DNA of 64,000 nucleotides from an uncultured Desulfosoma sp. (GTDB lineage Bacteria > Desulfobacterota > Syntrophobacteria > Syntrophobacterales > DSM-9756): NCBI GenBank assembly GCA_937960435.1, contig CALGPN010000015.1:1-64000 (forward strand), written 5' to 3'. Position numbers and translations under genes: made by a program. Position 1 is the stretch's first letter. Each line of letters begins with the position of its first letter. Shown here piece by piece: positions 1-57,720 of this stretch. The notes below the pieces were generated by a model that did no database searches, was not told the DNA's origin, and worked only from the letters and a program-made list of their open reading frames with translations.

Positions 1-3000
1 CGAGCACGTCGGCGATGCTTACCCCCCGATAGGCGATGCCCAGCGTTTCCCTGTTGAATCGCCGTCCCAAACACACCTCGCAGGGGACCGTCACATCCGG
101 GAGGAAACTCATGGCCACTCGAGTCCGCCCCTGGCCTTGGCATGTCTCGCAACGTCCCCCTTTGACGTTGAAAGAAAAGCGGCCGGCCCGAAAGCCCCGC
201 GCCCGGCTTTCGGGAACCGCGGCAAAAAGCTTCCGGATCTCATCCCAAATCCCCACGTAGGTCGCAGGGGTCGATCGCGGGGTTCTCCCGATGGGCGTAT
301 GGTCCACCTCCACCACACGCCGGACGGCTTCATGACCCTCGACGGCATCCGCAGGAATGCTGGGGTCAAGGCGACCATTGTGTTTTATGGCAGTCATGGC
401 CTCTTTGAGCACGCCGTAGACGAGGGAACTCTTGCCCGACCCGGAAACCCCGGTCACGCACACGAGCGCCCCCAGCGGGATGCGCACGTCGATGCTTTTG
501 AGATTGTTGGCCCGGGCTCCTCGAAGCACGAGCCATCCCACGGGTTCGGGCCTTTCGCTCTTGAGCGGCGGATTTTTATGGGAATCCGCTGTGCCGAACC
601 ATTTTCCCGTCAAAGTCTCCGGACGATGCACCAAAATGTGGAAGGGGCCTTCGGCCACCACCCGGCCGCCCCCGCGGCCGGCTTCCGGACCCAATTCCAC
701 CACATGGTCGGCTTCCCGCATGGTGTCCACGTCGTGTTCTACCACAAGAACCGTGTTGCCTTTGTCGGCAAGGGTCCTCAAGTTTTTCAAAAGCTTGGCG
801 TTGTCCGTGGGATGGAGCCCTATGGTCGGCTCATCGAGAATGTAGCAAACACCCCGAAGGTTTGAACCGAGTTGAGCGGCCAAGCGGATTCTCTGGGCTT
901 CGCCGCCCGAAAGGGTCTCACCGGAACGGCTCAACGTCAGGTAATCCAAGCCCACATTCATGAGGAAGGCCAGTCTTTCGGCCATTTCCCGCGTGACCGG
1001 CTCCGCCACCGCCTTCTCGGCACCTTCAAAACGCAGATCCCTCCAAGCTTTATCAAAATCTCTCAGGGGCAAATCCACCAAATCCATGAGGGACAAACCC
1101 TTCAGGCGGACCGCCCGGGCCTGGGCATTCAGACGCGCCCCTCGGCATTCGGCACAAAGAACGTTCCCGTCCCATCCGGTGCCTTGGCAGCGCGGACACA
1201 TGCCGTGACGGCTGTTGAAGGAAAAGAGCCGAGGATCCAACGGCGCATAACTTTTCTCGCAGGCGGGGCACATCAAGTGGCGGCTGAAAAAGCGGTCTTG
1301 CGATCCCGAGACCACGACGGTTCCCCCTCCCAGTCGGAGGGCTTCCAGGATGCGCTTCTGCAATGCGCCATCGCTCAACCCGTCCGCAGCCGCCGTGTCC
1401 AAGACGACAAGCTCGATGTCGTGTTCCCGATGCCGGGCAATGGCAGGCACAGGGGTGAGGGACTGGAGAACGCCGTCGATCCGCACGCGCTCAAATCCCA
1501 TCCGGGACAGTCGGAAAAACAGGTCTCGGTAAATGCCCTTGCGACCCCGCACAAGAGGGGCCAGCAGCAGGCCGTGCCCTTGGCGCATTTCTTCTTCCAC
1601 CAGCCGCACAATGGCATCGGGGCTCATGGCTTCCAGAAGTTTTCCGCAGGACGGGCAGTGCTGTCGGCCAAGCCGTGCGAAAACCAACCGGAGAAAATGG
1701 TAAATCTCGGTGATGGTTCCCACGGTGGATTTTCGACCCAGCTGGGACGTTCGCTGCTCGATGGCCACCGTGGGAGGAAGCCCGAGGATCTGATCCACAT
1801 CGGGTTTTTCCAAGATTTTGAAGTACTGGCGCACGAACGTGGAAAGGCATTCCAGATAACGCCGTTGTCCCTCCGCAAAAAGGATATCGAAGGCCAGAGA
1901 CGATTTTCCGGAACCGCTGAGGCCGGTGAAAACGGTCATGCCGTACAGCGGCAGTTTGAGTTCATCCACCTTGAGGTTGTGTTCCCGTGCCCCCCGGACA
2001 ATGATATGGGTGGGCTTTTCCAGGGGTTCCCGATTTCGGGTTTTGCTTTTCACATCCAAACCAATCTGCGCTTCCTTCACGGCGCGGGGTCCACCAAGTC
2101 CGCGCCTTCTAAGGTACCGACCTGTGTGGCTCGTTTCATGGCCCGCCACCTGGTCCGGGGAACCGCAGGCGACCACATATCCTCCGGCGTCGCCGCCTTC
2201 GGGCCCCAAGTCGATGATCCAGTCGCACGCGCTCAGAAAGTCCAGGTTATGTTCAACAACGAGGACCGTATGGCCTTCGTCCACCAGCCGCTGGAGCACG
2301 GCGATCAGTTTTTGGAGGTCGTGGGGATGGAGGCCCACAGTGGGCTCATCCAAAATAAAAAAGAGGTCTTTGCGGGGTGAACCCCATCGGTTGATTCCCA
2401 GGTAGCGCAAAAGCTTGACTCTTTGGGCTTCCCCGCCGGACAGCATGCTCAAAGGCTGGCCTAAACGAATATAATCCAGCCCGATGGCCACCACGGGTTC
2501 CAATGCCTTGCGGATGAACCCGTGGTCGGGGAAAATTTCCAGGACTTCCTGCGCCGTTTTGTCCAAAAAATCTGCAATGGAAAAGCCACGCACGCGGATG
2601 TCCAGAATTTCGTCGCGAAAGCGCCGACCGTCACAGGCCGGGCAGCGCACGTAGGCATCCGCGAGGAACTGCATCTCGATTTTGAGAAAGCCCTCGCCTT
2701 TGCAGTGATCGCATCGTCCCCCGGGGACGTTGAAGGAGAAGTGCCCTTCTCCATACCCCCTCAGGCGCGCCTCTGGGGTTGCGGCGAAAAGCTTTCTCAG
2801 GGGGTCCAAGACCTTCGTATAGGTCAGCAGGTTGGCTCGAGGGGACCGTCCCACAGGCTTTTGATCCACCAAGACCATTTCGGCCACAGCCTCCACACCT
2901 TCCAAAGCGAGGCACCGGCCCGGCGTTTCCCCGGGAAGGCCACGAAGACGGCGCCAGCCGTGATACAGGGTCGTTTCCACGAGTGTGCTCTTCCCCGATC

Positions 3001-4882
3001 CGGAAACTCCACTGACGCCAATCAGGCAGCCGAGAGGGAAAGAAACCGTGATATCTTTCAGATTGTTTTCCGACGCGCCCACGACGGTGACGGCCCCCTG
3101 AGAACCGACATGGGCCCGGGGCTTTCTCATGTTTTTTCCCAGGGCGGCGGGCTGATAGAGGTAGCGTCCCGTGAGGCTTTGCGGTACGGACGGCAAACCC
3201 TCCGGGGGACCTTGATAGAGAACTTCTCCTCCCTTTTCCCCCCCGGACGGACCCAAGTCGATGACCTCATCGGCCATGCGAACCATCTCGGGGTCGTGTT
3301 CCACAAGGACCACCGTGTTTCCCAAAGAGACCAGTCGGCGCAAAGGCCCCATCAGCCGTTCCTGGTCCCTCGCATGCAGCCCCGCGCTTGGTTCATCCAG
3401 CACATAAAGGACGTGGGTCAGGGCGGAACCCAGGGCCCGGGTCAAATGGACCCGCTGCACCTCGCCTCCTGAAAGGGTTCGGGATTGCCGGTCCAGCGTC
3501 AGATAATCGAGCCCTACGTCCGAAAGAAATTGCAGCCGACCGCGGATTTCTGTGATGAGCAGAGCCGCTGCGGGGTCCTTTCGGCACTGCTCCCACAACG
3601 TATCGAAAAATGTCAGGCACCGTTTGACGGACCAAGCGCACAATTCGTCGATGGCCGCCCCGTTTAGGCGATAGACTCGGGCGGCGTCCCGATATCGGCT
3701 GCCGCCGCACGCATGACACGGCACATAGGCTCGATACCGCGACAGGAAAACCCGCACGTGCATTTTGTAGGTTTTGGATTCGAGCCATTGGAAAAAACCG
3801 CGAACGCCGTAGAAGCCGTCGTGGCCGTCGAGGACTTTGCGGCGATGCTCGGCGGAAAGTTCCCTAAAGGGAATGTCCACGGGGATGCGTTCCCGGCGGC
3901 AAAAATCCAGCAGCTCTTCGTACTCCATCCGGTCCGGTGTCCATGGGCGGATGGCTCCCTGACGAAGGGAAAGCCCGGGATTCGGAACGACCAGGTCCAT
4001 GTCCACGTCGATGACGCGACCAAAACCTCGACAGTGTGGACACGCCCCCAGGGGACTGTTGAAAGAAAAAAGGTTCGGCGAGGGCGGCTCGACGCTCACG
4101 GCGCATCGAGGGCATTTTAGGTCTTGGGAGAATCGCAGGAGTTCCCCATCCACAATGCCCACCGCCGCTTCGCCCCCGCCCATGGCAAATGCGGTGCGCA
4201 GAGAATCCAGCACCCTGGGCGGTTCGGCCTTGGCCCACAGGAGACGATCCACCACAACGACAAGATCTCCTCCAGCCTTTTTGGGGAGTTGTTCTCGGGG
4301 CAAGGCCTCCAAATCCAGGACTTTTCCCGAAACGTAGATGCGGAGAAAACCCTGGGAGACGAGGTCCTGAACCCATTGTTTCCCCTGAGGGTGATACGGA
4401 AAACCGATTACGAGTCGAGACTCGGGGGGCAGCCCATGAAGCCTCTCCAGAACGGACTCGGGGTCCTCCTTGCGGATGACGGCTCCACATTGGGGGCAGT
4501 ACGGCACCGCGATGCGGGCATAAAGGTATTTCAAGTGGTCGGTGATTTCCGTCATGGTCCCCACGGTGGAACGGGAACTACGCACCGTGGTGGCCGATTC
4601 GATGGCGATGGCCGGAGGGATCCCTTCGATGACATCGGCATCGGGGCGGTCCATTCTTTCCAAAAACTGGCGCGCGTACGGGGAAAAGGTCTCCACGTAC
4701 CGGCGTTGGCCTTCGGCGAAGAGCGTATGAATGGCGAGACTGGATTTCCCCGACCCGCTGACGCCGCTCACGGCCACAAGACGATAAAGGGGAATATCCA
4801 AATTCAAATTCTTGAGGTTGTGCTGGCGCACGCCGCGCAGTCGGATGTGTGCGCCCTTTTCGGGAATGTCTTTTCGGGCCAT
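1..4882 (-). CDS. uvrA: Double-length (tandem-fused) excinuclease ABC subunit UvrA, 3' end outside the window
   Basis: UvrA is the DNA-damage-sensing ATPase of UvrABC nucleotide excision repair. Reading from the ATG at 4882, one frame stays open to the window edge (at least 1627 codons), against about 940 aa for a normal UvrA. A first full copy has Walker A GVSGSGKS near residue 41, a first signature (LSGGEVQR) near 469, a second Walker A near 620 and a second signature (LSGGEAQR) near 811, with CxxC zinc pairs between. After a short linker, at about residue 943, a second UvrA begins with its own Walker A motifs near 986 and 1475 and its own LSGGEAQR signature. I found no stop codon in the frame across the junction (2040-2240). 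The CarS/phosphoesterase gene lies 65 bp upstream on the same strand. Family assignment is certain; how common the double form is, I cannot check. Confidence 0.93.
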   Translation of the reverse strand, partial: MARKDIPEKGAHIRLRGVRQHNLKNLNLDIPLYRLVAVSGVSGSGKSSLAIHTLFAEGQRRYVETFSPYARQFLERMDRPDADVIEGIPPAIAIESATTVRSSRSTVGTMTEITDHLKYLYARIAVPYCPQCGAVIRKEDPESVLERLHGLPPESRLVIGFPYHPQGKQWVQDLVSQGFLRIYVSGKVLDLEALPREQLPKKAGGDLVVVVDRLLWAKAEPPRVLDSLRTAFAMGGGEAAVGIVDGELLRFSQDLKCPRCAVSVEPPSPNLFSFNSPLGACPHCRGFGRVIDVDMDLVVPNPGLSLRQGAIRPWTPDRMEYEELLDFCRRERIPVDIPFRELSAEHRRKVLDGHDGFYGVRGFFQWLESKTYKMHVRVFLSRYRAYVPCHACGGSRYRDAARVYRLNGAAIDELCAWSVKRCLTFFDTLWEQCRKDPAAALLITEIRGRLQFLSDVGLDYLTLDRQSRTLSGGEVQRVHLTRALGSALTHVLYVLDEPSAGLHARDQERLMGPLRRLVSLGNTVVLVEHDPEMVRMADEVIDLGPSGGEKGGEVLYQGPPEGLPSVPQSLTGRYLYQPAALGKNMRKPRAHVGSQGAVTVVGASENNLKDITVSFPLGCLIGVSGVSGSGKSTLVETTLYHGWRRLRGLPGETPGRCLALEGVEAVAEMVLVDQKPVGRSPRANLLTYTKVLDPLRKLFAATPEARLRGYGEGHFSFNVPGGRCDHCKGEGFLKIEMQFLADAYVRCPACDGRRFRDEILDIRVRGFSIADFLDKTAQEVLEIFPDHGFIRKALEPVVAIGLDYIRLGQPLSMLSGGEAQRVKLLRYLGINRWGSPRKDLFFILDEPTVGLHPHDLQKLIAVLQRLVDEGHTVLVVEHNLDFLSACDWIIDLGPEGGDAGGYVVACGSPDQVAGHETSHTGRYLRRRGLGGPRAVKEAQIGLDVKSKTRNREPLEKPTHIIVRGAREHNLKVDELKLPLYGMTVFTGLSGSGKSSLAFDILFAEGQRRYLECLSTFVRQYFKILEKPDVDQILGLPPTVAIEQRTSQLGRKSTVGTITEIYHFLRLVFARLGRQHCPSCGKLLEAMSPDAIVRLVEEEMRQGHGLLLAPLVRGRKGIYRDLFFRLSRMGFERVRIDGVLQSLTPVPAIARHREHDIELVVLDTAAADGLSDGALQKRILEALRLGGGTVVVSGSQDRFFSRHLMCPACEKSYAPLDPRLFSFNSRHGMCPRCQGTGWDGNVLCAECRGARLNAQARAVRLKGLSLMDLVDLPLRDFDKAWRDLRFEGAEKAVAEPVTREMAERLAFLMNVGLDYLTLSRSGETLSGGEAQRIRLAAQLGSNLRGVCYILDEPTIGLHPTDNAKLLKNLRTLADKGNTVLVVEHDVDTMREADHVVELGPEAGRGGGRVVAEGPFHILVHRPETLTGKWFGTADSHKNPPLKSERPEPVGWLVLRGARANNLKSIDVRIPLGALVCVTGVSGSGKSSLVYGVLKEAMTAIKHNGRLDPSIPADAVEGHEAVRRVVEVDHTPIGRTPRSTPATYVGIWDEIRKLFAAVPESRARGFRAGRFSFNVKGGRCETCQGQGRTRVAMSFLPDVTVPCEVCLGRRFNRETLGIAYRGVSIADVL

Positions 4883-4947
4883 GGCATCCCTTCCACGCAC
4901 GGGTGTCGACTCCACACACCTCGCGCGCGGGCGAATTTCAAACGCCG

Positions 4948-6345
4948 CTAGGCTTTCTTAAGTGTGATGAAGACTATCTCGCCCTCGGTCCGGAACCGCA
5001 CCGGAGAGCCGGAAACACCGACACCGGCACTCGTATAACCGATCATGTCTTTGAGTTTCCAGAGCCCTTGGACGAGGGAACGAGGGGATCGGGTATGGGT
5101 GAAAACGGGGCCGATGCGGGGGACTTGAATCTGGCCCGCGTGAGTGTGTCCGCACAGATACAGCGGCACACCGCAACGGGCGGCCTCTTCGGCGATTTCC
5201 GGGGAGTGCACGAGCAGAATGACGAAGGCCCCTGGGGGAACTTGGGCCAAAGCGGACGGGAGATCGTCGGCGCGAAAGTAATGGGGATCATCCACGCCGA
5301 CGATGCACAGACGATCCGAGCCTCTCTCCACGCATTGGGCTTCGTTGACGAGAAAACGAATCCCCTCGTCTTTCAGGGCGGCAACCATTTCCGGACAGTC
5401 GTGATTGCCTAAAACAGCCAAAACGCCGTCTCGAGCCTGGATGTGCGGCAAAAGGCGACGTAGCCGCCGAATGGCCTCTTCGCTGGGCCCGTAGTTTTCC
5501 ATCCGGTAATCGCCCCCGAGAAGGCACAGATCCACGGGCTCATCGGCAAGCCATTCCTGAAGGCGTTCCACCAAGCCGTCCAAACCGTCCAGATGAAGGT
5601 CCGTCATGAGGAGCATGGAATAGCCGTCGAAGGCGAAGGGAAGGTTCGGGAAAGACAGAGTCAGGCGCCTTTTTGTCACATTGAGCGCATTGGCCTTACC
5701 CTTATCGATAAGCCGCAGCCATCGAAATACGGTGTTCATCACGACTCTGTAGAGCATGACGTCTTCGAAATGAAACATATGAGCCCACGGTGCCGTGCGG
5801 ATTTGACAACTGGTCAACTCCCGAAGGCGGACTCGCGTGTTGACCGGGCGGGGATAGCCTTCGAAAGGTTGCTGGGAAAGAATCTTTTTGAAAAAATGCG
5901 ACCCTACGTAGGCCCCGGCACAAAAGAGCAACACCAGAAGGGCAATCACGACGGGATGGGTCCCGACGTACGGGAAAAGCGCGATGAGAGGAAAAGCCCC
6001 CTCGAAAATTTGGTCCAAAAACGGCACGGTGCTGCCGCTGCCGAAGTTCAGTCGACGCTTGATGAAGCTGGAAAGAAGATCCCCGGCCATGCTCAAAACG
6101 GCGGCAGCACCGCCCGCAAACCAAGGCAAACCGAGAACGGGGGCTCCCACCACGCCCGTCGCCACAGCCCCTATGATGCCGCGAATGGTTTTGTTCGGTC
6201 CGAAAAGCGGCTTGCCGTCCCAAAAAAGCCGGCCTCCATCCACCGGGGCGGCCCATCGTTTGTCGAAAAAGAACGCGAGCAGGGGAGGGGCGAAATTGAC
6301 AGCCCATAACAGAACGAGAGCACTCAGAAAAGCTTGGATATGCAT
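4948..6345 (-). CDS. CDP-archaeol-synthase-like membrane domain fused to a metallophosphoesterase
   Basis: 465 aa with two parts. Residues 1-150 are hydrophobic and carry the CarS/DUF46 signature: GPNKTIRG near 49, GDLLSSFIKRR near 88 and FLDQIFEGAF near 109. In archaea this family moves CTP onto archaeal lipid; bacterial members presumably act on another polyprenyl or lipid substrate. Residues 240-465 are a calcineurin-like phosphoesterase of the YkuE type, with DLH at 249, GGDY near 277, GNHD near 311, a VHSP His and GHTHAGQ near 406, which supply the usual metal ligands. The linker (150-240) is soluble. The phosphoesterase is probably tethered at the membrane and acts on lipid or nucleotide phosphates; its side of the membrane is not obvious. 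It is divergent from the radical SAM gene across a 65-bp gap. The domain calls are seen in the sequence; the substrate is unknown. Confidence 0.82.
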   Translation of the reverse strand: MHIQAFLSALVLLWAVNFAPPLLAFFFDKRWAAPVDGGRLFWDGKPLFGPNKTIRGIIGAVATGVVGAPVLGLPWFAGGAAAVLSMAGDLLSSFIKRRLNFGSGSTVPFLDQIFEGAFPLIALFPYVGTHPVVIALLVLLFCAGAYVGSHFFKKILSQQPFEGYPRPVNTRVRLRELTSCQIRTAPWAHMFHFEDVMLYRVVMNTVFRWLRLIDKGKANALNVTKRRLTLSFPNLPFAFDGYSMLLMTDLHLDGLDGLVERLQEWLADEPVDLCLLGGDYRMENYGPSEEAIRRLRRLLPHIQARDGVLAVLGNHDCPEMVAALKDEGIRFLVNEAQCVERGSDRLCIVGVDDPHYFRADDLPSALAQVPPGAFVILLVHSPEIAEEAARCGVPLYLCGHTHAGQIQVPRIGPVFTHTRSPRSLVQGLWKLKDMIGYTSAGVGVSGSPVRFRTEGEIVFITLKKA

Positions 6346-6410: not shown

Positions 6411-7676
6411 ATGCCTCATAAGGGCGCCGTCGTTTTTCGGTATCATCCTTCGAATCGATACAGTTTCTTGGCTCTTTTGGCTTCCTTAGAAGCCCGAAAG
6501 GGCGGTGATGATACACCGATTCTTTGGCTGGATACCAGCAGAAACGCCGAGGTGCTCTCCGCGCTCCATCGATGGCTCGAAGACTACGACAAACTCCTTG
6601 TCGCCTATTCTTTCATGACACCTCAATGGGCCGAAACGGCCCGGGAAGTGAAAACACTCTCCGGCCTTCGAGACCGAAACCGATGCCTTCTTGCGGCCGG
6701 GGGGCCCCATCCCTCTGCCAGTCCACGATCGGTTCTCGAAGCCGGCTTCGATGTGGTGTGCCGGGGAGACGGCGAGCCGGTTTTCCCGGAATTGATTCAG
6801 CGGTGGGCGGAAGGGATGCCGCTGAAGCCTATTCCCGGGCTCTACCTGCGCACCTCTCAAGGGCCTCTCTATACAGGGCCGCCCCGAAGGGCCCCTCTGG
6901 ACATGGTCCCGGCGCTCCCCCTGGCCCGCGGGAAATACGGTCCCATCGAAATCACCCGGGGATGTCCCTACAGGTGCCGGTACTGCCAAACCCCGCGGCT
7001 TAAAGGACGCACCGTTCGTCACAGGAGCCTTGAAGCGATTTTTCGGGCGGTGGAAGCGATGATCAAAGCCGACCGAAGGGACATCCGCTTTATTTCCCCC
7101 AATGCTTTCGCATACGGTTCGCCCGACGGACTTCAGCCCAACCTCAGCGCACTCCAAGCCCTTTTGTCGGGCCTTCGGGAGCGCCTCTCCAGCGCAGGGC
7201 GGGTTTTCTTCGGCACGTTTCCCTCGGAGGTCCGCCCGGAATGGGTCCGGCCGGACACTTTGGCTCTGCTCGTTCGCTACGCCGACAACCGCCAACTTGT
7301 CATGGGGGCGCAAAGCGGTGACCCGGAAATGCTCCGTCGCATGGAGCGCGGCCACACCACGGATGACGTGCGCAGGGCCTGCGCTCTCATGAAGACTTTC
7401 GGGATTCGGCCCATCATCGATTTCATCCTCGGATTGCCCGGGGAAAGTCGAGAACAAATGGCACGTTCTATGGATTTCATGGAGGAGCTGGCCGAAGAAG
7501 GCGCCCGCATCCACGCCCACGCCTTTATCCCCCTTCCCGGTTCCCCGTGGGCCGTCCGAAAGCCCGAACCCATCCCCGACGACATCCGATCCCGTCTCGA
7601 ACGCCTCATCTCCCGGGGAAAACTCTTCGGTCAGTGGAAAGCCCAGGCCCACCTGGCCCAATGTCAATCCCTTTAA
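6411..7676 (+). CDS. B12-binding/radical SAM protein, MJ_1487-like
   Basis: 421 aa. The N-terminal part (1-150) resembles a cobalamin-binding Rossmann domain (LLAAGGPHPSA, then CRGDGEPVFPEL). The radical SAM [4Fe-4S] motif CPYRCRYC has Cys at 185, 189 and 192. It is followed by family-typical stretches RDIRFISPNAFAYG, FFGTFPSEVRPEWV and FILGLPGE. These match my memory of the TIGR04013 (MJ_1487) family, found in methanogens and some anaerobic bacteria; the substrate is unknown. The start is well supported by AAGGAGGAG seven bases upstream of the ATG. It is a single gene transcribed away from the CarS/phosphoesterase gene. Confidence 0.88.
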   Translation: MPHKGAVVFRYHPSNRYSFLALLASLEARKGGDDTPILWLDTSRNAEVLSALHRWLEDYDKLLVAYSFMTPQWAETAREVKTLSGLRDRNRCLLAAGGPHPSASPRSVLEAGFDVVCRGDGEPVFPELIQRWAEGMPLKPIPGLYLRTSQGPLYTGPPRRAPLDMVPALPLARGKYGPIEITRGCPYRCRYCQTPRLKGRTVRHRSLEAIFRAVEAMIKADRRDIRFISPNAFAYGSPDGLQPNLSALQALLSGLRERLSSAGRVFFGTFPSEVRPEWVRPDTLALLVRYADNRQLVMGAQSGDPEMLRRMERGHTTDDVRRACALMKTFGIRPIIDFILGLPGESREQMARSMDFMEELAEEGARIHAHAFIPLPGSPWAVRKPEPIPDDIRSRLERLISRGKLFGQWKAQAHLAQCQSL

Positions 7677-56548: not shown

Positions 56549-57280
56549 ATGCCGTTAATTCGCACGCAAAGTCCCAAAACCGCCTCGACTTCTCAAACGG
56601 CGAAGGGTCTATCCCTCGGCTCGTTCGCAGCACAACTTTGCGCTCTCGTCCGCACCGGCGCCCGCCGTCTTCGACACGCTCCCCCGTGGACTCATCTGGC
56701 GACGCTCTTCACCTTACACATCGTTGGCGCTTTGCTCATCAAAGGATTTTTGAACAGCCGTCATCCCGGACGTCTTGCGGCCCTTTCGGGGCTTGTGGCG
56801 GGCCTCGCCGTCTGTCTCTGGGCGCGGAAGCGCTTCACCGGGAAATTGCCTTCCCCGTGGGTTCGCCTGCTCCCTGCCTTGTGCTACGCTTTTTTCATCG
56901 CCTCCATGTCCCATCAGCCGCTCGGCGGCGTTCGACTGCCGGTTTCCGGGGATGCGTTCCATCCGGTGGTCTACGCCTGTTTGGCTGTCTTTTTGGGCTG
57001 GTTTCGTCTCCCGGTTTTGCAGGAACGGCGACTCGTCCCTTTCGCTCTGTGGGTCGCGGTGCCCGGAGCCCTTTTCGCCTTCACCGATGAATGGCATCAG
57101 AGTTGGATTCCCGGGCGGTGCCGCAGCGCGTCCGATGTTTTGTTGGACCTCATAGGGTTGTGCCTGGGCACAGGGGGCGTCGTCTTCCTCCACCGGTGGG
57201 CTCCGCAATGGAAAACCACCGAGGCGAAAACGGCCACTCAGGAACCCAGCACGGCCAAAGTCACAGCCAGCAGGCCATGA
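56549..57280 (+). CDS. VanZ-family membrane protein
   Basis: 243 aa. Several TM segments; the VanZ signature is TDEWHQSWIPGRCRSASD followed by VLLDLIGLCLGTGG. The N-terminal 45 residues are Ser/Thr-rich and may not all be translated. GGAGG lies before the ATG. Function unknown in this family beyond teicoplanin resistance in enterococci. Its 3' end overlaps pgpA by 43 bases, convergently. Confidence 0.75.
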   Translation: MPLIRTQSPKTASTSQTAKGLSLGSFAAQLCALVRTGARRLRHAPPWTHLATLFTLHIVGALLIKGFLNSRHPGRLAALSGLVAGLAVCLWARKRFTGKLPSPWVRLLPALCYAFFIASMSHQPLGGVRLPVSGDAFHPVVYACLAVFLGWFRLPVLQERRLVPFALWVAVPGALFAFTDEWHQSWIPGRCRSASDVLLDLIGLCLGTGGVVFLHRWAPQWKTTEAKTATQEPSTAKVTASRP

Positions 57281-57720
57281 GCGTAAAGTCCTGCGGCCAC
57301 ATCATCGGCCACAATCCCCAGTCCCCCTTTCAGTTGCCTGTCCATGACGCAGACGGGCCACGGTTTGAGAATATCCATGGCCCGAAAATACAAAACGGCC
57401 AGGAAGAGCGACAGGGGCGTGACAACGATGCCGACGGTCGTAAACAAAAAGCCGACGAGTTCGTCGATCACCACCTCTTGGGGATCGTCCCGACCCAGAC
57501 GCCGTTCGGCTTCCCCGCACACCCAACAGGCCCCAAGGAAAAGAACACCGAGGATCAGGCAGGCCCATCCGTAGGGGCAGAGGGACAGAACAGAAGCCAG
57601 GGGAACCCCCACCCCCACGGTGGCCGCCGTGCCCGGCGCTATGGGGATCTTGCCGAAAAAGCCCAGTCGCGCGATCCCGACAACGACCGAGCCCCGGAGT
57701 TGCTGGGGATCAACTGTCAT
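57238..57720 (-). CDS. pgpA: Phosphatidylglycerophosphatase A
   Basis: 160 aa. KIPIAPGTAATVGVG, DPQEVVIDELVGF, YFRAMDILKPWPV and GIVADDVAAGLYA fit PgpA, which removes phosphate from phosphatidylglycerophosphate in membrane lipid synthesis. Start ATG 57720 with AAGGAG 5 bases upstream; the ORF to 57780 is not supported. Confidence 0.93.
   Translation of the reverse strand: MTVDPQQLRGSVVVGIARLGFFGKIPIAPGTAATVGVGVPLASVLSLCPYGWACLILGVLFLGACWVCGEAERRLGRDDPQEVVIDELVGFLFTTVGIVVTPLSLFLAVLYFRAMDILKPWPVCVMDRQLKGGLGIVADDVAAGLYAHGLLAVTLAVLGS

Follow-up and report, generated by a model that had tools for sequence, protein, structure and literature searches.

The window (the whole stretch of DNA that was analysed, 64,000 nucleotides long) encodes, in one chain, a real fusion of a CarS-like membrane domain and a calcineurin-like metallophosphoesterase (MPE), and the bacterial kind of CarS-like domain to which it belongs has a phosphoesterase partner in every genome of the phylum sample that carries it. 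Read on the minus strand from 6345 to 4948, the frame starts with ATG, holds 0 internal stops, and gives 465 aa (Table 1). Its N-terminal part matches PF01864 (CarS-like) with 41.6 bits and its C-terminal part PF00149 (Metallophos) with 38.9 bits, above the Pfam gathering cut-offs of 22 and 21.5, respectively. The ligand motifs of calcineurin-like MPEs are D-x-H, GD, GNHD, H, and GHTH, and the metal site of the window protein is presumably formed by D249, H251, D279, N314, H315, D316, H380, H400, and H402. These residues are invariant in 26/26 aligned fusions, with the motif set of the superfamily complete, and the same holds for the CarS-type residues K52, T53, D89, S93, K96, R97, D111, Q112, and E115; even the most distant of the 26, at 38-39% identity to the window protein, keep both sets. 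The preliminary description of a CarS-like membrane domain and a phosphoesterase on a single chain, each with its motifs kept, is thus confirmed.

Table 1. Features of the fusion gene and its product, in window coordinates
Feature	Position	Strand	Basis or remark
CarS-like + calcineurin-like MPE fusion gene, whole	4948..6345	minus	465 aa; stop codon 4948-4950
CarS-like CTP-transferase domain, residues 1-155	5881..6345	minus	PF01864, model, 5GUF fold match, hydropathy and charge
KTIRG motif, residues 52-56, first loop predicted cytosolic	6178..6192	minus	K52, T53, R55 invariant
GDLLSSFIKRR...DQIFE, residues 88-115, carrying the bacterial D[QH]xxE signature and presumed to form the CTP/metal site	6001..6084	minus	alignment against ApCarS DQLDF
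Conserved linker/helical block, residues 156-241	5623..5880	minus	alignment
Calcineurin-like MPE domain, residues 242-465, predicted cytosolic	4951..5622	minus	PF00149, fold matches
DLH (D249, H251), presumed metal-ligand motif	5593..5601	minus	alignment of fusions
GGD (D279), presumed metal-ligand motif	5509..5517	minus	alignment of fusions
GNHD motif (N314-D316)	5398..5409	minus	alignment of fusions
GHTH (H400, H402), presumed metal-ligand motif	5140..5151	minus	alignment of fusions

The joining of the two domains is not the product of a frame error, since full-length, single-frame, stop-free matches (from residue 21 or earlier to residue 442 or later) are present in 37 of the 59 genomes searched. 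Specifically, the full-length fusion is found in 35/39 genomes of the window's order and in two genomes of another family outside it (G041, G043), and three of the order's copies lie on single-contig genomes (G005, G015, G031), so that the fusion survives the comparison with other assemblies; within the order, G028, G033, and G036 give partial matches and G023 gives none. In the tree of CarS domains, all 19 fused rows lie on one side of one branch (support 100/99), which is compatible with the fused type having arisen once. The tree of phosphoesterases, with a support of 69/76 and two long outgroup branches, does not resolve a single split between fused and unfused proteins. From about residue 188, the linker block also occurs near the N-terminus of unfused phosphoesterase relatives. 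Two apparent architectures were discarded: the 792-aa frame of G306 is an ordinary fusion with an upstream open-frame extension taken for spurious, and the seeming RsmG-CarS fusion of G180 (L108) consists of a separate overlapping RsmG ORF (L108:9337-10170) and a 356-aa frame in which Pfam finds only CarS. The locus L006 is labelled Myxococcota, and apparently the same locus occurs in G123, labelled as belonging to the sampled phylum.

The AlphaFold2 model of the fusion, built from the 26 aligned fusions, has a mean pLDDT of 88.3 and a pTM of 0.81, with low confidence at residues 182-191. Its residues 1-155 match the CarS structure of Aeropyrum pernix (5GUF; Z 16.4, rmsd 2.6, 145 residues aligned of 158, 26% identity), and residues ~240-465 match Mre11 (Z 15.9), aq_1956 (15.7), GpdQ (15.4), and Rv0805 (15.2). 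LpxH is absent among the best 50 PDB fold matches listed, which is uninformative on kinship, and the named matches listed from a viral structure library are general phosphoesterase folds only. The model has five membrane helices (2-27, 54-70, 75-98, 110-127, broken at 118, and 131-156); mean hydropathy rises above threshold within residues 1-148 only, with the fourth helix just under it. Positive charge is concentrated in the loops 25-58 and 88-113 and in the tail after residue 150, the remaining loops having nearly none, and the positive-inside rule predicts from this an N-out/C-in orientation. Given this pattern and the model, the MPE is predicted to be cytosolic, on the same side as CTP binding by CarS, whose active site is placed on the cytosolic side in a passage of PMC9385802.

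The comparison with known enzymes delimits what each half is likely to be. With the CarS of A. pernix, the fusion shares the five-helix fold, the KT.RG/KT.EG loop, the GD...S...KRR and DQ motifs, and a predicted cytosolic active site; it differs in its DQxxE motif, in the fused or paired phosphoesterase, and in a genome without GGGPS match. CdsA belongs to the same CTP-transferase superfamily, and CTP_transf_1 reaches 17.3 bits on the fusion, below the cut-off of 24; unlike CdsA, the fusion has a short CarS core, and its genome holds a separate CdsA-like gene. The label 'YkuE-type', initially given to the MPE half, holds at the level of the superfamily and fails at a closer one, the best NCBIfam matches being YaeI with 70 bits (cut-off 188) and LpxG with 55.2 (cut-off 350). 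YaeI and YkuE proteins, including polytopic YkuE, have in common with the fusion the phosphoesterase superfamily and the order of a membrane part followed by the MPE. Part of PMC5449189 describes polytopic YkuE proteins as exported by Sec and Tat; unlike these, the fusion has an MPE predicted to be cytosolic and lacks a twin-arginine immediately ahead of its last membrane helix, as the RR of KRR (97-98) lies before helix 4 and belongs to the CarS motif. Hydropathy and the model give no strongly hydrophobic segment between the last membrane helix (131-156) and the MPE, and Sec-Tat export of the MPE was rejected, a suitable helix and motif being absent. The LpxG of Chlamydia, a UDP-2,3-diacylglucosamine diphosphatase, is likewise a membrane-associated calcineurin-like phosphoesterase with partial similarity to the MPE half, and a passage of PMC4807358 describes it as cleaving a nucleotide-lipid diphosphate; conversely, the score of the fusion is far under the LpxG cut-off, its genome has LpxI, and its five-helix CarS-like part contrasts with the one predicted helix of LpxG.

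That the two domains belong together is indicated more strongly than by this one gene by the phylum sample of 395 genomes, searched with the bacterial-type CarS alignment as query (match at E ≤ 1e-8). The DQxxE CarS-like domain is present in 36/395 genomes: in 22 of them it is fused to an MPE (16 in the window's order, together with G123, G183, G344, G397, G415, and G306), and in the other 14 it stands alone, each time with a same-strand downstream gene for a PHP-fold phosphoesterase, which overlaps it or follows within 131 bp in 13/14 cases and lies 1.45 kb away in one. Thus, the same membrane protein is accompanied by two unrelated phosphoesterase folds, and a partner of either fold in 36/36 CarS-bearing genomes supports the earlier suggestion that both domains serve one lipid pathway. 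The presumed metal-site His/Asp/Glu residues of the PHP partner are invariant in 10/10 aligned proteins. A close relative of this partner (E < 1e-110) occurs, across the 395 genomes, in exactly the 14 with stand-alone CarS, and no match at E <= 1e-10 is found in any of the 22 fusion genomes. Eleven more genomes, without this CarS, have a clear weaker PHP relative (E 8e-75 to 1e-84), with no DQxxE-type CarS within the fetched flanks, and nineteen far weaker PHP matches (E 3e-26 to 6e-11) occur in the sample. The fold of the PHP partner matches TM0559 (2anu, Z 21.6), PsfC (7rty, 19.1, third-ranked), and RNase AM (9etk, 15.4). PHP-family phosphoesterases, which are absent from this window and unrelated to the MPE fold, provide the fold of this alternative partner, and the partner differs from the known ones compared in being tied to a homologue of lipid CTP transferases. 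In one PHP partner (L118:9143-9838, plus strand), a long C-terminal helix is predicted at residues 208-230, basic-rich by eye, which could possibly serve as a membrane-contact element.

Outside this sample, a protein search found bacterial-type CarS in three of 72,556 plasmid records, all from Pseudomonadota. On the alphaproteobacterial megaplasmids of Methylobacterium nodulans and Bosea, CarS and MPE are neighbouring convergent genes, and the MPE shares 36-38% identity with the window protein over residues 188-464 of the latter; the Variovorax plasmid is an exception to the pairing, as neither an MPE nor a PHP gene lies within 6 kb of CarS. The phosphoesterase is also met by itself: in G046 without a CarS match, in G017 as a second, unfused copy besides the fusion, and on a Bradyrhizobium plasmid, of which the 10.8 kb fetched contain no CarS. 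The genome that carries the window has, moreover, a separate 372-aa calcineurin-like phosphoesterase (L062:7397-8512, plus strand, G000:C37) with an N-terminal part hydrophobic by eye and 25% identity to the MPE half of the fusion.

The CarS domain itself falls into two kinds. Among the 41 domains examined, D[QH]xxE is found in 36/36 of the bacterial type (19 fused, 14 with PHP, 2 beside MPE, and 1 alone) and DQxD in 5/5 of the archaeal type (L109, L110, L111, L113, and L116). At the corresponding site, ApCarS has DQLDF and the fusions have DQ.FE or a similar sequence. The window domain is of the bacterial kind; its score against the NCBIfam equivalog for CDP-2,3-bis-(O-geranylgeranyl)-sn-glycerol synthase is 65.7 bits, below the cut-off of 148. 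GGGPS/PcrB (PF01884) has no match in the window's genome, which is 95% complete, all absences from it being subject to that figure. On the other side, 9/45 genomes have PF01884 matches of 20-31 bits, and six of these nine reach the cut-off of 23.9; in 8/9 matching genomes, however, they cover only ~45-60 of 226 positions, the exception being G005. Two genomes of the f82 family carry a run of genes for a UbiA prenyltransferase, a CDP-alcohol phosphotransferase, a PS decarboxylase, and an archaeal-type CarS (L113:8132-11142, minus strand; L116:6045-9045, plus strand), assigned by Pfam for L113 and, for L116, by Pfam for the transferase and by cluster for the others, which looks like an archaeal-type phospholipid route. 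In both, the DQxxE CarS, with its PHP, lies on another contig. A radical SAM gene adjoins the archaeal-type CarS at L110:7174-8919 (plus strand, PF04055), and one of the same cluster does so at L109:5455-7204 (minus strand).

The genome of the window is also equipped with the usual lipid enzymes. It has a separate CTP_transf_1 gene (PF01148, 193 bits), taken as CdsA, a PgpA inside the window (57265-57675), which is found in 44/45 genomes, five CDP-alcohol phosphotransferase matches, and LpxI_C (170 bits), present in 50/58 genomes, this one included; LpxH has no match in it at 95% completeness. As CdsA-like, PgpA, and LpxI_C genes are present and GGGPS is not found, no gap in the synthesis of PG, lipid A, or archaeal lipids accounts for the fusion. 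Accordingly, four roles were set aside: sole CDP-DAG synthase (because of the separate CdsA-like gene), sole PGP phosphatase (because of PgpA), LpxG filling a lipid A gap as a necessary function (because of LpxI_C), and archaeal lipid synthesis (because no GGGPS match was found in this genome). Together with DQxxE in place of DQxD, the same observations make the name 'CDP-archaeol synthase' unlikely, and the activity of that name is not supported, the NCBIfam cut-off being missed as well. A polyprenyl substrate, one of those suggested in the preliminary description, receives neither support nor contradiction from the data. This name is also given to CdsA. A Liberibacter 'CDP-archaeol synthase', met in a passage of PMC7936317, was dropped as evidence, its name being ambiguous. 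The LpxI_C match at G000:C59:8440-8829 (minus strand) sits in an open frame of ~650 aa, likewise in many relatives, which suggests that LpxI is joined there to a second protein, perhaps LpxB.

Some gene neighbourhoods point to the envelope. In 6/14 PHP-type loci, a same-strand gene for an MsbA-like ABC transporter is found upstream at a distance of 0-49 bp (in L112, its best NCBIfam match is MsbA, with 514 bits against a cut-off of 602), and LptD is found downstream by BLAST in 5/14, while a sixth locus, L121, has a fragment of the LptD cluster at the contig end; neither MsbA-like nor LptD genes are present in the fetched stretches of L118 and L120. In G123, the fusion follows, on the same strand, genes for an epimerase, for LptF/LptG, and for a WecA-like glycosyl transferase 4 (PF00953). 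The f104 family has two genomes with the fusion, and in both a same-strand gene for a PgsA-like CDP-alcohol phosphotransferase (62 and 69 bits, against a pgsA cut-off of 109) directly precedes it, at 39 and 115 bp. Conversely, the window's order has no constant lipid operon around the fusion in 29 full-length loci from 27 genomes (among which L004 and L005 repeat L040 and L042, with neighbour families scanned in part). Its fusion loci mostly adjoin genes without evident lipid role (uvrA, TIGR04013 radical-SAM, sigma factor, GTPase), and the neighbour hints are therefore suggestive and not general.

The reading we favour, with rather less than even confidence, is that of a bifunctional enzyme within an envelope-lipid pathway of bacteria: the fusion would form a CDP-lipid and then act on that lipid through the tethered MPE. 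Judging from fold and motifs, the CarS-like domain would use CTP to attach CMP to a lipid phosphate at the cytosolic face of the inner membrane, yielding a CDP-lipid, and the attached or neighbouring cytosolic phosphoesterase would process this CDP-lipid or the next product. PgpA acts after CdsA and PgsA; by analogy with it, the first choice for the second step would be that, once a CDP-alcohol phosphotransferase has consumed the CDP-lipid, the phosphoesterase removes the terminal phosphate left behind; in a close second, it would free CMP from a CDP-lipid that had been modified. The lipid is unlikely to be the DGGGP of archaea, and a link to the biogenesis of the outer membrane or of LPS is possible. 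Several observations speak against this bifunctional reading. The ordinary PG pathway does not need the fusion, as PgpA and a CdsA-like gene are present in the same genome, and the PgsA-like neighbour is found in 2 fusion genomes only, both of one family. The phosphoesterase is also met without CarS (G046, the second copy of G017, and the Bradyrhizobium plasmid), the Variovorax CarS is without a phosphoesterase neighbour, eleven genomes have the more distant PHP relative and not this CarS, and the loci of the window's order mostly adjoin genes of no evident lipid role.

An unlikely but serious alternative is that the CarS-like domain would cap a lipid phosphate with CMP, that the capped lipid would be modified by another enzyme, and that the MPE would cleave the diphosphate to give CMP and the finished lipid phosphate. 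LpxH, LpxI, and LpxG release UMP from UDP-diacylglucosamine, and PsfC acts on a CMP-linked phosphonate; the place of LpxG, a cleaver of a nucleotide-lipid diphosphate, among the two best NCBIfam matches of the MPE half and that of PsfC as third-ranked fold match of the PHP partner (7rty, Z 19.1) are consistent with such a scheme, and a direct fusion favours the hand-over of the CarS product itself. However, it amounts to a futile CTP cycle unless there is an intervening step, for which no enzyme is consistently linked, and LpxG reaches 55 of 350 bits. An improbable alternative is the supply of undecaprenyl phosphate, since the CTP-transferase superfamily also holds CTP-dependent polyprenol kinases: the CarS-like domain would be a kinase of the dolichol-kinase kind and the MPE a cytosolic undecaprenyl-diphosphate phosphatase, so that each half would provide carrier lipid for the glycans of the envelope. 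The weak CTP_transf_1 similarity (17.3 bits against 24, with 25.8, just above, for the stand-alone L112 protein) and the glycosyl transferase 4 (PF00953) directly upstream of the fusion in G123 speak for it, whereas the GD...S...KR...DQ motifs and the fold match CarS, in a comparison that included no kinase, and the loci scanned show no undecaprenyl gene with consistent linkage. It is very improbable that the MPE half is a missing lipid A pyrophosphatase (LpxG) with the CarS half as membrane anchor or accessory only: the LpxG-like similarity and a genome without LpxH match are offset by its LpxI_C (170 bits; 50/58 genomes), by CarS motifs that are invariant and unneeded for an anchor, and by the PHP partner in other lineages. 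Finally, a true CDP-archaeol synthase for archaeal-type lipids with the MPE as a helper has the Pfam family name and the fold on its side and is barely credible beside the DQxxE motif, the absence of a PcrB/GGGPS match from the same genome, and the separation of archaeal-type from DQxxE CarS in f82.

If the bifunctional reading is followed beyond the window, we propose tentatively that diderm bacteria of several lineages have a second, CdsA-independent CTP-dependent route of lipid activation. In it, a CarS-derived cytidylyltransferase, regularly coupled to a cytosolic phosphoesterase (of the calcineurin type through fusion or a neighbouring gene, or of the PHP type through an operon), would make an undescribed envelope lipid or LPS-linked lipid modification. 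If true, envelope lipid synthesis would have a hitherto unknown branch that depends on CTP and is encoded beside LPS export in some lineages. Bacterial genes of the DQxxE kind named 'CDP-archaeol synthase' are probably unrelated to archaeal lipids, and the regular pairing gives such annotations a concrete, testable hypothesis and two enzyme systems, the fusion and the operon, in which to address it. Both folds and the superfamily of each half are already known, and the conserved coupling to two phosphoesterase folds, by fusion or in an operon, appears to be new; among the matches listed from the open-licence PMC literature, the portions consulted contain no description of a CarS-phosphoesterase fusion or pairing.

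The non-lipid surroundings of the fusion recur to different extents in the order. Of the 29 loci, 16 have a sigma-factor cluster (c1) inside the fetched stretch and 8 have the radical-SAM cluster of TIGR04013 (c6), the latter corresponding to 7/27 genomes with a fetched full-length fusion, from two families. In the window, the gene of this B12-binding radical SAM protein (TIGR04013, MJ_1487 family; 6411-7676, plus strand) is divergent from the fusion, with 65 bp between them. On the other side, an over-long UvrA is encoded at 2-4915 on the minus strand and cut by the window start, with 1638 aa within the window; its residues 22-937 make up a complete UvrA, after which come more UvrA/ABC-type stretches, and the corresponding ORFs of relatives reach 1789-1832 aa.
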